Positions 9,463-62,358 of a DNA stretch of 64,000 nucleotides are shown piece after piece. Numbering within the stretch: position 1 is the stretch's first letter; each line of letters begins with the position of its first letter. Source of the DNA: Olsenella porci (GTDB lineage: Bacteria; Actinomycetota; Coriobacteriia; Coriobacteriales; Atopobiaceae); the NCBI RefSeq assembly GCF_009695875.1, contig NZ_VUNC01000009.1, forward strand, positions 1-64,000, written 5' to 3'. The notes under the pieces were generated by a model. It saw only the letters and a program-made list of their open reading frames with translations. It did not search any database and was not told the DNA's origin. A program made the translations under genes and the position numbers.

Positions 9463-9953
9463 AGGGCGGAGGAGGTGGTCCCGACGGCTGGGGCAGTCTC
9501 CGCCGTCGGGGTTGGCAAGTCCGCATGCGCGGCATCCCAGAGCCGCCTGCCGTCCGCGGGGAGGCAGTCGGGCAGGTCGGCTGCAAACTCCTCGCTCCCC
9601 CACTCGCACGCCTGACTGTAGTACCAGCACTTCCAGTCGATCATCGCGCGGGTGCGCTCCAGCTCCTCGATTTGCTCGTCCACCCTGCGGCGCTGCTCGC
9701 GGAAGAGCTCCAGCCGATCGTCGTAGGTGCTGGGACCCTCCTGACACCAGTCCATGAAGCGCTTGATGTCTCGGATCTCGAGCCCCGAGCGCTTGAGGCA
9801 CTCGATCAAACGCAGCGCCTCGATCTGGTCGTCGCCAAAGCGTCGAGTACCCGACGTGCGCTCCAACCCAGGAAGGAGCCCCATCTTGTCGTAGTAGCGG
9901 ATGGTCGAAACCGGAAGGCCGAACATCCGAGAGACCTGGCCGATTGTGTACAT
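9459..9953 (-). CDS. MerR-family regulator divergent from the alcohol dehydrogenase
   Basis: A 164-residue regulator. The N-terminal MerR winged helix begins YTIGQVSRMFGLPVSTIRYY at residue 2. It is followed by the effector-side helix pair (KRSGLEIRDIKRFMDWC) and a dimerisation coiled coil about residues 80-115. The C-terminal part contains the motif WKCWYY, shared with the second MerR gene of this window (55287-55745, YKCWYY), so the two are paralogues. MerR proteins of this type usually control a neighbouring aldehyde or alcohol oxidoreductase in response to electrophiles. The palindrome at 9974-9999 lies just before its start and before the dehydrogenase gene, so it probably controls both. 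Confidence 0.88.
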   Translation of the reverse strand: MYTIGQVSRMFGLPVSTIRYYDKMGLLPGLERTSGTRRFGDDQIEALRLIECLKRSGLEIRDIKRFMDWCQEGPSTYDDRLELFREQRRRVDEQIEELERTRAMIDWKCWYYSQACEWGSEEFAADLPDCLPADGRRLWDAAHADLPTPTAETAPAVGTTSSAL

Positions 9954-9973
9954 CGCGTGCACCTCAAATTCGT

Positions 9974-9999
9974 ATCTAGACCTAAAGCTAGGTTGAGAT
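9974..9999. promoter_or_regulatory. Probable MerR operator in the divergent promoter
   Basis: A 26-bp interrupted palindrome: outer arms ATCT (9974-9977) and AGAT (9996-9999), inner arms ACCTA (9980-9984) and TAGGT (9989-9993), centred at 9986.5. It lies 21 bp before the MerR start and 43 bp before the dehydrogenase start. Palindromes between the -35 and -10 boxes are the norm for MerR regulators. Confidence 0.6.
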
Positions 10000-10041
10000 T
10001 CTACAACAGAGAAGAACGTACCTTCGACGAAAGGAAGCGCC

Positions 10042-11208
10042 ATGCTCGGAGACTTCACCTACCACAACCCCTGCCGCGTCCACTTTGGGCCCAACGCGCT
10101 CGACGAGCTCCCCAGCGAGCTCGCAGAGTACGGCCCCAAGGTCCTTCTCACCTATGGCGGCGGCTCGATCAAGAGAAACGGCGTCTATGACAAGGTCATC
10201 ACCGCGCTTGAGGCTGCCGGCAAGACCGTGTTCGAGGTTCCGGGCGTCATGTCCAACCCCACCGCAGACAAGCTGCGCGAGGGCGCGAAGGTCGCACGCG
10301 AGAACGACGTCGACCTGATCCTGGCAGTGGGCGGCGGCTCCACCATCGACTACGCCAAGGGTGTCTCTGTGTCCGCATGGACCGAGGGCGACCCCTGGGA
10401 GCACCTGTACCTGCACATGGAGGAGCCGACCGGCAAGGTCATCCCCGTGGGCGACGTGTTGACCATGAGCGGCACCGGGTCGGAGATGAACGCAGGCTCC
10501 GTGATCACCAACCACGAGGAGGGCCTCAAGATCGGCCACGTGTTTGGCCCCAATGTGATCCCGCGCTTTGCCATCGTGAATCCTGAGGTCACCTTCACCG
10601 TGCCCGACTACCAGATGCGCGCAGGCATCTACGACGCCTTCAACCACATCTGCGAGCAGTACTTCTCCGGGACCGATGACAACACCAGCGACTACATCGC
10701 CGAGGGCCTCATGCGCAGCCTGGTGCACGCAAGCCGCATCGCGGTTAAGGACCCCACCGACTACGAGGCGCGCTCCAACATCAGCTGGGTCTGCACCTGG
10801 GCGCTCAACACGCTCATCGCGTGCGGCAAGTCGACCGACTGGGAGGTCCACATGCTGGGCCAGGCCATCGGAGCGGTTACCGACGCCACGCACGGCATGA
10901 CCCTCTCCGCCGTGAGCCTGCCCTACTATCGCCTGGTCATGCCCTACGGAGTGGAGAAGTTCGCGCGCTTTGCCCGTGCGGTGTGGAACGTGGATGACTC
11001 CGGCAAGTCCGAGCGCGAGGTCGCCGAGGCGGGCCTGGAGGCAATGAGCGAGTGGATGGACCAGATTGGCGTGGTCAAGAGCGCCCGCGAGCTGGGACTG
11101 ACCGAGGAGAACATCCCCGATGCAGTGAAGGCGACCTTCATCCTGGACGGCGGCTACCACAAGCTGACGACCGAGGAGGTCGAGCAGATCTTCCACGAGA
11201 GCCTGTAA
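10042..11208 (+). CDS. Iron-dependent alcohol dehydrogenase (BdhA/YqhD type)
   Basis: A 388-residue group III alcohol dehydrogenase that reduces aldehydes to alcohols with NAD(P)H. The nucleotide-binding GGGS motif is present (AVGGGSTIDYAKG, residues about 95-107). The metal ligands fit the family pattern D-X3-H...H-X13-H: Asp near 197 and His near 201 (YDAFNHICEQ), His near 270 (WEVHMLGQA) and His near 284 (THGMTLS). An earlier GG-rich loop (TYGGGSIKRNG) indicates the BdhA/YqhD subgroup, which often prefers NADPH. The start follows CGAAAGGAAGCGCC. It is divergent from a MerR gene and ends in a strong terminator, so it is probably monocistronic and induced by an aldehyde or thiol-reactive signal. 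Confidence 0.93.
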   Translation: MLGDFTYHNPCRVHFGPNALDELPSELAEYGPKVLLTYGGGSIKRNGVYDKVITALEAAGKTVFEVPGVMSNPTADKLREGAKVARENDVDLILAVGGGSTIDYAKGVSVSAWTEGDPWEHLYLHMEEPTGKVIPVGDVLTMSGTGSEMNAGSVITNHEEGLKIGHVFGPNVIPRFAIVNPEVTFTVPDYQMRAGIYDAFNHICEQYFSGTDDNTSDYIAEGLMRSLVHASRIAVKDPTDYEARSNISWVCTWALNTLIACGKSTDWEVHMLGQAIGAVTDATHGMTLSAVSLPYYRLVMPYGVEKFARFARAVWNVDDSGKSEREVAEAGLEAMSEWMDQIGVVKSARELGLTEENIPDAVKATFILDGGYHKLTTEEVEQIFHESL

Positions 11209-11235
11209 AGCCGCGGCGCGCAGACGGCATGCGCT

Positions 11236-11281
11236 GGGCCGGGACGGTGGGTTGAGCCTTCCGTCCCGGCCCGCCTCTTTT
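11236..11281 (+). terminator. Rho-independent terminator of the alcohol dehydrogenase gene
   Basis: Perfect 12-bp arms GGGCCGGGACGG (11236-11247) and CCGTCCCGGCCC (11261-11272) are followed by a T-rich tail ending at 11281. Confidence 0.9.
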
Positions 11282-11380
11282 CGGGCTTTGCCGCGGACGC
11301 CGGAGCCGGGTTTTGCTTCCGAGGAATATCGACCTGTAGCTATCAGTCAGACAGCGGGCAATCATCGACGAGCGGGACCC

Positions 11381-11625
11381 TGCTTAGGAATTGCGAGTAT
11401 TGGCAATCGATGGGGTCCCACGGGGGCGTTCTGCTGAGGAAACGCGAGCTTTGGCAATGAGGAGCCCCCGATGACTGCCAATACTTGACTTTCCTCAGTA
11501 GGTAAGTGGTGCGCGGGGCCGTGCGGAGCTACCGGATTGCCACAACTCGACTTTCCTCAGCAGGTAAGGGGCGCACGGTGCCCTCACCGAGCTCCAGGAT
11601 TGCCACAACGCGCATTTTCTCAGCA
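11381..11625. repeat. Convergent array of 27-bp TGCTGAG repeats, site 1
   Basis: Five copies of a 27-bp repeat are present. Two point right (11381-11407, 11432-11458) and three point left (11474-11500, 11536-11562, 11599-11625). The consensus begins TGCTGAGRAAR and ends TTGTGGCAAT or TATTGGCAAT. Same-orientation spacings are 51, 62 and 63 bp, near whole helical turns. The copy at 11536 differs from the one at 21305 by a single base. The inner opposed pair (11432 and 11474) can form a hairpin. The array lies between the dehydrogenase terminator and the alaX gene and contains no gene. Confidence 0.85.
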
Positions 11626-21304: not shown

Positions 21305-21467
21305 TGCTGAGAAAAGTCGAGTTGTGGCAATTCGAGGGGGCTGTTCCGCTGAGGGAGATGGTGTTTTGGCAACGATTGAGGGCAGAAACTACCCCGTGGT
21401 CTGCCAATAGCTCGTCTTTCTCAGCGGAGTGCGCCTCTCAATTGCCACAACTCGACTTTTCTCAGCA
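21305..21467. repeat. Convergent array of 27-bp TGCTGAG repeats, site 2
   Basis: The outer copies (21305-21331 and 21441-21467) are perfect 27-bp inverted repeats of each other, beginning TGCTGAG and ending TTGTGGCAAT. Inner copies lie at 21347-21373 and 21400-21426. Same-orientation spacing is 42 and 41 bp. Immediate flanks CGAGG and CCTCG extend the outer symmetry with one unpaired base. The element sits between two convergent genes in the 403-bp gap 21157-21559, which holds no gene. Confidence 0.88.
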
Positions 21468-29106: not shown

Positions 29107-29382
29107 GCTTAACATCGCTAGCCCTCTTGCTGATTCAGAATCCGGATGCTTAGCGCCACTAGGTCTCATGTGGATTTGGGCGCCAAATGCTTACCGCCGT
29201 TAGGCCTCATGTCGGCAGGGCGCCCAAAAACCCACACGAGGGCTAGACTCTCTAAGCCCATCTCCCCCCAATTTCGCACGAGGGCTAGGTTTCCTAAGCA
29301 TCAGGGACACCAATCCGCGTGAGGGCTAGCAACGCTAAGTACCCCTCCCCCCGATTTCCCACAAGGGCTAGGACCGTTAAGC
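29107..29382. repeat. Convergent array of 23-bp GCTTAG...CTAGCCCTCGTG repeats, site 1
   Basis: Seven copies are present. Three point right, starting at 29107, 29148 and 29189. Four point left, ending at 29257, 29299, 29340 and 29382. The period is 41-42 bp throughout. The repeat core is GCTTAG, 5 variable bases, CTAG, CCCTCGTG. The 18-bp spacers are themselves partly conserved (C-rich, then AATTTCG-like before each left-pointing copy), so the unit is really about 41 bp. No gene overlaps it. Confidence 0.88.
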
Positions 29383-29528
29383 ACCCCCGTTGCCAAACCT
29401 ACGGAGGATTCCAGTCACGCTTCTACGAGAGCACCAATCCCGGGTCGAAAACGTCATTCAACACGAGTTCCGCGAGCATGGCATCGTCACAATCAACCGA
29501 AGAAAGCCGGGCGACAATTGACAGCAAG

Positions 29529-29785
29529 CTAGACTGCGGCAGAGCGCGAGGCAACCCGCTTTGCACACCCATCGTCAAGACGCTCGGGGACCCACATCTT
29601 GATGACTGCTTGACAGTTGACACCAATGCGAGCCGCCTCACAATCGAGCGCCGTAACCATCCACACGGGAAATCGACGTTCACGCGCTTTGCCTCGCGAT
29701 TGGGAAACTCGGGATGTTCGAAGTCAAAGTACGCTTCCATGTCCTCGCCAGAGTCAAAGCTCTCGAGCAGGGCGTCATCATCTAT
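29529..29785 (-). pseudogene. BrnA-type antitoxin remnant with a frameshift
   Basis: Directly after the toxin gene, one frame gives DDDALLESFDSGEDMEAYFD and PNREAKRVNVDFP, typical of BrnA-like antitoxins. The ribbon-helix-helix continuation VWMVTALDCEAARIGVNCQA and VIKMWVPERLDDG lies in the next frame. One missing base after VDFP (around 29665-29675) separates the two. No good start codon is seen: an ATA stands at 29783-29785 where a start would be expected. As it stands no full antitoxin would be made. Confidence 0.6.
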
Positions 29786-30053
29786 GCGCGTTGCGTTTAT
29801 GGCTCTTCCTCTCCCTTTCTGTGGCACGACGGGCGGAGATGACCCGAATGGTTTCCTCTCCACCCTCGGTATGAACAACGCTCAGCAGCATCGTGTACGT
29901 GCGACCTATTGCCATGAGGCGCTTCTCGCCCTTCCTTTTCGCGTGTACAACCATGAGGTCCGGGTCATCCCAAATCTCGATCGATTCCTCGAACGAGACC
30001 TTGCGCTTCCGCATGTTCCCCTCGCTCTTTGCCGAATCCCGTTCGAATCTCAT
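29778..30053 (-). CDS. brnT: BrnT-family ribonuclease toxin, possibly inactivated
   Basis: A 91-residue protein with the BrnT layout: MRFERDSAKSE, then NMRKRKVSFEES, DDPDLMVVHAKR, LMAIGRT and IRVISARRATERER. BrnT toxins are RNases controlled by the adjacent antitoxin BrnA. The usual KHGVSF motif reads KRKVSF here, so the conserved His after Lys is replaced. This may weaken the toxin and explain survival with a broken antitoxin. The local DNA is AT-richer than its surroundings, suggesting transfer. A palindrome before the start fits an autoregulated operon. Confidence 0.75.
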   Translation of the reverse strand: MRFERDSAKSEGNMRKRKVSFEESIEIWDDPDLMVVHAKRKGEKRLMAIGRTYTMLLSVVHTEGGEETIRVISARRATERERKSHKRNAHR

Positions 30054-36745: not shown

Positions 36746-36807
36746 TTGTACCCCCAACCAACAGCCAAGACGTGAAAGGCTGCTTACGCCGTTCAGAGCA
36801 AACGGAA

Positions 36808-36878
36808 AAGCAGCTGGCTGCCTGTTAGGGCCCTGTAGCTTTGCGTCACCGCCTTTCGGCGGCTTTGCCTTTATATTC
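36808..36878 (-). promoter_or_regulatory. Cyclic di-GMP-I (GEMM) riboswitch
   Basis: The minus strand carries GEMM aptamer landmarks in order: AAAGGCAAAGCCGCC, the GAAA tetraloop, GGCGGTGACGCAAAGC, then GGGCCCTAAC (receptor side) and AGGCAGCC. It lies about 65 bases upstream of the tip-adhesin ATG in the same orientation, so it should switch the pilus operon by c-di-GMP. I could not resolve the expression platform; GCAGCCAGCTGC followed by TTTT at its 3' edge may be part of it. Confidence 0.86.
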
Positions 36879-43052: not shown

Positions 43053-43242
43053 GCTTAACATTTCCCTGCCTAGCGTGGATTGGGGGCCGAATGCTTAGCC
43101 TCCCTATCCCTCGTGGGGATTTCGGTGCCTGATGCTTAATCCTCCTAGCCCTCGTGGGAGCTACGTGGCGGAAAACCATACGAGGCTGGGAATCATTTAG
43201 CATGACACGGTCGAATCCGCACGAGGCCGGGGAACTCTAAGC
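43053..43242. repeat. Convergent array of GCTTAG...CTAGCCCTCGTG repeats, site 2
   Basis: Three right-pointing copies start at 43053 (slightly rearranged), 43093 and 43134. Two left-pointing copies end at 43201 and 43242. Spacings are 40, 41 and 41 bp. The sequence is the same family as 29107-29382. It fills the gap between the NERD gene and the GGDEF/EAL gene. Confidence 0.85.
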
Positions 43243-61621: not shown

Positions 61622-62358
61622 TGCCCATCACCATCCACAACCACCCAGGTACCTGCCTTCCGTGAACCCTCGCGTCTCACCAGGCCTGCTTGCTGAAGGT
61701 GCGCAAGCATGAGCGTCACAGTGCTTCGTGACAGGCCGAAGGACTCCGCCATACGAGCCTGCGTGATGGAGGGGTCCTTCGCAAGCATTGCGAGAAGGGC
61801 TCTTTCCTCCGAGCTGACGCCCGTGTTATTGTCCGATTTATTGTCTTTATTGTCCGATTTATTGTCCGACGCCAGGCTGTTTGCGATCTTCCCAGGGGCG
61901 TCCGTGACGGCCTGTCCGTGGAGGTAGGCGCCGAACTGCTCAGCTGACGGGCGCCACATATTCACGCGCAGCATACCGTCGATGTCCAGGAACTCGGGAG
62001 CACGCAGTCCCCTCTCCCCGAGCTCATGCATGATCCTGGGAATGCCGCTCCCCCAGCCCTCGATAAGCCCCATGTAGAGGAATGCCTGCGCCAGCGCCTC
62101 GTTGCGGGGCCGCGACTGGCCTGACAAGGCCCTGTCGAGCGAGAAGCCCCTCACTATGCCTCCCGGGGAGCTCACCTCGAGGCGGTCGTCGTAGAGGGCG
62201 ACCTGCACCGACGAGCGCTCCACGTACGAGCGGTGCACCACCGCGTTGGTGATGGCCTCACGGACGGACCACTCCGGCAGCTCGAAGACGTCCCTTCGAA
62301 CCACGCCGCCAAGGTCCGCTCCCATGTTCATCTTCTCCAGCACGAACTGGTAGGCGCT
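61618..62358 (-). pseudogene. C-terminal half of an AlbA_2/RecG-like ATP-binding regulator
   Basis: The coding sequence reads SAYQFVLEKMNMGADLGG, WSVREAITNAVVHRSYVERS, EVSSPGGIVRG and RPRNEALAQAFLYMGLIEGWG, the HATPase_c_4-like half of AlbA_2/Schlafen-type proteins. A C-terminal winged helix (SITQARMAESFGLSRSTVTL) follows. The N-terminal AlbA_2 domain (normally about 200 residues) is missing. A tandem repeat of TTTATTGTCCGA (61832-61870) encodes an Asn/Asp/Lys-rich linker. It overlaps the start of the Res remnant by 4 bases. Confidence 0.65.

Follow-up and report, generated by a model that had tools for sequence, protein, structure and literature searches.

The locus at 29107-29382 of the analyzed window (a stretch of 64,000 nt from Olsenella porci) carries seven 23-bp units, three of them rightward and four leftward. 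The array reported here by the first-pass annotation is thus real, and its period of 41 to 42 bp was confirmed: the distances between successive unit starts are 41, 41, 46 (across the center), 42, 41, and 42 bp. Since the units differ from GCTTAG-N5-CTAGCCCTCGTG at 0 to 4 positions, the motif given earlier is to be understood as a consensus. Units of this kind are referred to below as family B. In the whole window, the family B pattern had 9 matches at ≤3 mismatches, compared to 0.04 expected from shuffles. The coordinates of the units and of the other arrays in the window, some of which belong to the sister family A (TGCTGAGRAAWNNCGAGTNNTGGCAAT), are listed in Table 1.

Table 1. Array units and arrays in the window.
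Feature	Position	Strand	Description
Family B unit R1	29107-29129	+	2 mismatches to consensus; matrix score 33.6
Family B unit R2	29148-29170	+	3 mismatches; matrix score 32.3
Family B unit R3, innermost rightward	29189-29211	+	4 mismatches; matrix score 27.2
Array center	29212-29234		R-to-L start distance 46
Family B unit L1, innermost leftward	29235-29257	−	Exact consensus (0 mismatches)
Family B unit L2	29277-29299	−	Exact consensus (0 mismatches)
Family B unit L3	29318-29340	−	3 mismatches
Family B unit L4	29360-29382	−	2 mismatches
Second family B array	43053-43242		+ 43053 (weak), 43093, 43134; − 43179 (weak), 43220
Family A array	11319-11623		+ 11319 (weak), 11383, 11434; − 11474, 11536, 11599
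Family A array	21307-21465		+ 21307, 21349; − 21400, 21441

A BrnT toxin gene (Pfam match) and a probable partner gene, located at 29423-30053, neighbor the array. Elsewhere in the window, a c-di-GMP-I-GGC riboswitch (36805-36878) lies close upstream of a 1257-codon open frame whose product is surface protein–like, and TTATTGTCCGAT forms a short tandem repeat at 61826-61869. An alcohol dehydrogenase/MerR segment together with part of a family A array (9486-11519) has counterparts of 96% identity in two other genera (G085 and G108), which suggests horizontal transfer that took an array along.

Family B arrays across the genome

The genome from which the window originates (referred to as G000; 2.36 Mb in 15 contigs, a 98.95% complete assembly) yielded 120 matches to the family B pattern, compared to 3 for a backward-read control. 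With a weight matrix run over the fetched loci, which contain all 120 pattern matches, 32 arrays comprising ~145 units were delineated. The concern raised with the original description, that there might be two such loci only or that the spacing might not be conserved elsewhere, is thereby removed: 72 of the 86 same-strand spacings are 41 bp, the others being 42 bp (7), 40 bp (5), and 81 bp (2). The center distance is 44 to 46 bp in 25 of 27 arrays. Nearly all family B arrays are convergent, most contain 4 to 7 units, half arrays being few; divergent neighboring units were not found in any A or B array.

When family B arrays were compared to each other, agreement amounted to 0.88 in the core (a value inflated by the fact that units were located via their core), 0.35 in the N5 stretch, and 0.33 in the spacer, which appears random. 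Core recognition, rather than recent copying, therefore seems to shape these arrays. No family B arrays were present in the other 139 Atopobiaceae genomes, where isolated single matches only were detected, and the exact two-unit B pattern was not found in GTDB contigs or IMG/VR.

In several family B arrays (L046, L047, L050, L037, and others), the outer units are a variant lacking CTAG, approximately GCTTAACNTTCYCCGGCCTCGTG. A 447-bp tandem duplication (97.8%) at L048 3131-4105 takes in half of a B array, and at L057 175-612, a truncated B array directly adjoins a transposase fragment at the contig end.

Sister families and helical phasing

The architecture that the first-pass annotation had described as common to families A and B holds genome-wide, and a third family, C (RTCCYGTGTGTACACACGNNAC), also exists. 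In family A, ~140 units are spread over 36 places, of which 34 have multi-unit arrays. Its pattern had 94 matches genome-wide and that of family C had 62, distributed over ~16 loci; the backward-read controls gave 0 in both cases. The spacings of family A are 40-43, 51-53, 62-64, 73, 92-94, and 103-105 bp, with centers of 40-41, 50-51, 82, 92-94, and 103-104 bp; family C spacings are 73, 84-85, 104-105, 157, and 178 bp. The A spacings other than 41 (n = 39) are phased at 10.4 bp with R = 0.91 and a rough Rayleigh p near 1e-14, which is optimistic because some A arrays are copies of one another. At the same period, R is 0.95 for A centers and likewise 0.95 for family C. Since spacings in both families are multiples of 10.4 bp, the units would lie on one face of B-DNA, the signature expected if proteins assemble along that face. 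In the Thermophilibacter-type arrays (L121, L154, L156, and L159), an internal word, GTTCTTCTCG, recurs.

Intergenic placement and discrete copies

The 65 multi-unit arrays of families A and B all lie between genes; none overlaps a predicted gene by >30 bp. The arrays favor gene 3′ ends: convergent gene gaps account for 24 of the 65 arrays but 18 of 140 array-free gaps (Fisher p = 1.5e-4) and divergent ones for 6 of the arrays compared to 37 of the array-free gaps (p = 0.005), these counts being approximate because gene prediction relied on a simple codon-usage script. Region C1:1-265000 of G000, ~265 kb that include dnaA, contains no A, B, or C array.

Several family A arrays occur as discrete copies, forming homologous pairs that are 75 to 92% alike, with likeness mostly stopping no more than ~5 to 15 bp from the outermost units. 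The L073/L081 pair is an exception, as ~120 bp of flank is common to both members and one copy contains an extra 52-bp unit. Among relatives, Thermophilibacter provencensis (G116) has an array next to a tRNA-Asn gene, and G138 lacks it at the corresponding position. The G138 site (L178 2600-2680) carries convergent copies of a different repeat, GAGCATGCCCCCGCGCACGG.

A gene bracketed by family A and family C arrays

A scan of species with A-like arrays revealed a gene that has an array on either side in G116, G123, and G138. Named records assign the relatives to Olsenella and Thermophilibacter, genera of the Atopobiaceae. The G000 counterpart of this gene (C8:451.5-452.6 kb) has A arrays on both sides, while a second G000 homologue, identified by profile search at C1:591 kb, has C arrays on both sides. 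For any one gene, A arrays at ≤400 bp on both sides are expected by chance with a probability of ~3e-5. Homologues of the bracketed protein are present in 132 of 140 Atopobiaceae genomes, with 1 to 22 per genome; none were found in viral contigs, phages, or plasmids.

The left and right flanks of 36 of 43 homologue loci contain a common word of at least 21/24 bases. At this threshold, common words were detected in 1 of 129 shuffles and in 16 of 129 cross-locus comparisons, several of them being between orthologues. After removal of proteins >80% alike, 22 of 28 distinct loci keep a common flank word and 6 fall below 21/24. Because each array is two-sided, the common words are found both as direct and as inverted copies. 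The more alike two proteins are, the more alike are their flanks (Spearman 0.62; 0 of 2000 permutations); by this measure, the flanking repeats co-diverge with the bracketed protein. Next to a distant Nocardioides homologue (L133), an apparent repeat near GCCCAACTGCACTG is seen on both sides and is below the threshold of the flank test.

Predicted structure of the bracketed protein

The bracketed protein is ~350 amino acids long and is not covered by a dedicated Pfam family; its members gave weak to moderate matches to DUF559, DUF2726, or MTES_1575 (for DUF559, an E value of 6e-8 in the best member). In a predicted model with a mean pLDDT of 86, residues 178-303 matched I-Bth0305I (Z 10.5, 2.6 Å, 95 residues) and Vsr (Z 9.5, 2.6 Å, 98 residues). 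The C-terminal domain is predicted to be a Vsr/EDxHD-type nuclease with a PD-(D/E)XK-like core and conserved E, D, H, and D. The residues in question, E183, D227, H253, and D262, are invariant in 18 sequences, and in the model they fit an intact active site of the predicted nuclease.

When the N-terminal domain (residues 1-175) was modeled alone, its five best structure matches were AbiEi-related toxin-antitoxin entries. Ribosomal and other proteins in the structure match lists were treated as background. The best match, 6y8q, is moderate (Z 7.9, 3.7 Å, 118 residues), and the alignment covers the C-terminal antitoxin domain of AbiEi (67-195), not the AbiEi winged helix.

Discussion

The first-pass annotation proposed that families A and B form one superfamily read by one kind of protein. 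For A and C, whose arrays bracket the genes of paralogous Vsr-like proteins, a proposal of this kind is well supported. This support does not extend to family B: neither a B-bracketed nor a B-adjacent homologue was found in G000 at E values up to 10 (the genome has two homologues only), and the B weight matrix gave no array-like match on the loci of other nuclease genes. Since no gene is bracketed by B arrays in the assembly and no B arrays occur in the 139 other genomes, we infer the place of family B in the system from its architecture and from the GCTNAG-N5/6-CNAG likeness.

We propose that each array presents double-stranded binding sites on one face of the helix, organized as two convergent half-arrays, on which one sequence-specific protein would assemble cooperatively. 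The reader of A and C arrays would most probably be the protein whose gene these arrays bracket; with its predicted nuclease domain, it may also cleave DNA. Whole arrays, unaccompanied by the gene, have spread as copies to further intergenic positions, where they would act as non-autonomous elements in a system resembling REP/RAYT; the protein could take part in this dispersal, and the host might benefit from it. Family B is most likely another such family, its reader gene being lost, missing from the assembly, or diverged beyond recognition. Weighing against this explanation are the lack of a B-linked homologue and of B arrays in the other genomes, the lack of target-site duplications, the 6 distinct homologue loci below the flank threshold, and the moderate AbiEi-like match, which lies outside the winged helix; the flanking arrays could also be mere operators controlling the gene. 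Taken as a whole, we consider this explanation somewhat better than evenly supported.

The fate of the family B reader may be narrowed further in a version compatible with the above explanation for A and C, according to which B is an orphan whose nuclease-like reader was lost recently, leaving the arrays as relics. The restriction of family B to G000 and the lack of a B-linked homologue in its assembly are as expected from such a loss, but the B units are still well kept, as judged by core identity between arrays, and we regard a recent loss as possible though doubtful.

Alternatively, the arrays could serve the host as sites for a nucleoid protein or chromosome-domain protein that has nothing to do with the nuclease, those beside nuclease genes being operators or coincidence. 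A core that is strongly conserved between randomized spacers, the intergenic 3′-end bias, the array-free region around dnaA, and the existence of family B without a linked gene would all be natural for host sites. However, the possession by each homologue of its own repeat on both sides, the co-divergence of this repeat with the protein, and the low chance of A arrays bracketing a given gene argue against the host-site interpretation, which we hold to be unlikely.

An origin as miniature derivatives of an ordinary DDE transposon (Tn7, Mu, or IS21 type, with TG...CA ends) would account for the TG...CA ends of the arrays, their multiple end sites, and their discrete copies, and like DDE-transposon MITEs, the arrays are short and non-coding. 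But target-site duplications were not observed, as no direct repeat common to array edges was found in 34 A and 27 B arrays, and the array-bracketed gene does not encode a DDE transposase, which makes this origin highly improbable. We give equally little credence to RNA elements, i.e., long hairpins or bidirectional terminators at gene ends: the inverted layout and 3′-end bias fit, but the facing N5 stretches show no compensation (1.59 matches compared to 1.78 at random), spacer pairing is weak, the phasing is that of B-DNA, and an Rfam search of the window and the array site gave no match at the array. Tests of spacer and R/L complementarity likewise lent no support to an RNA or cruciform structure.

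The closest known parallel to the proposed system is provided by REP/RAYT. A RAYT gene invariably lies between two REPs in inverted orientation (PMC2817692), and bracketing of this form is seen for A, C, and 22 of the 28 distinct homologues. In both systems, a gene is flanked by its own repeat, the repeats are extragenic, dispersed, and numerous, repeat and protein co-evolve, and no target-site duplication is seen. In contrast to RAYT, an IS200/IS605-type Y1 HUH transposase, the protein described here is a predicted Vsr/DUF559-like nuclease, and while REPs are GTAG-tagged hairpins, the units described here are 23 to 25 bp long, double-stranded, and organized in helically phased convergent arrays. 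The GT(A/G)G tag is absent from the B, A, and C consensus, and there is no compensatory pairing in B. Because two features that define RAYTs are lacking, the likeness is one of logic, not of membership.

The first-pass annotation knew of no element of this design, and our survey of open-access papers, including those on Coriobacteriia repeats and on Vsr/DUF559-linked repeats, agrees with it in that no such element is described there. The arrays and bracketed genes suggest a hitherto undescribed type of dispersed DNA element in bacteria. Whether they represent a widespread class, in which each family, B included, has convergent, helically phased double-strand arrays and a Vsr-like nuclease protein of its own that reads and spreads them, we consider an evenly balanced question. 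If so, REP-like dispersed repeats have arisen from a second enzyme superfamily in addition to the HUH transposases. The protein family, which almost every Atopobiaceae genome tested possesses, often in the form of 5 to 18 paralogues that probably each have a DNA word of their own, would then offer many natural protein-site pairs for studies of DNA recognition, and the arrays would be a testable case of a nucleoprotein complex assembling along one helical face.

Each part of the bracketed protein has its own relatives. The predicted fold of residues 178-303 and the invariant E, D, H, and D are shared with the Vsr/EDxHD nucleases Vsr and I-Bth0305I; unlike these, the protein has an extra AbiEi-like domain, its gene is bracketed by dispersed arrays, and no intron or host gene is invaded. 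The predicted fold of residues 1-175 is moderately similar to the antitoxin domain of AbiEi, but the match does not include the AbiEi winged helix, no toxin partner was identified, and the arrays are found genome-wide rather than as a single operator. AbiEi binds 23-bp inverted repeats cooperatively (PMC7319586), a parallel to the arrays described here that is suggestive only.
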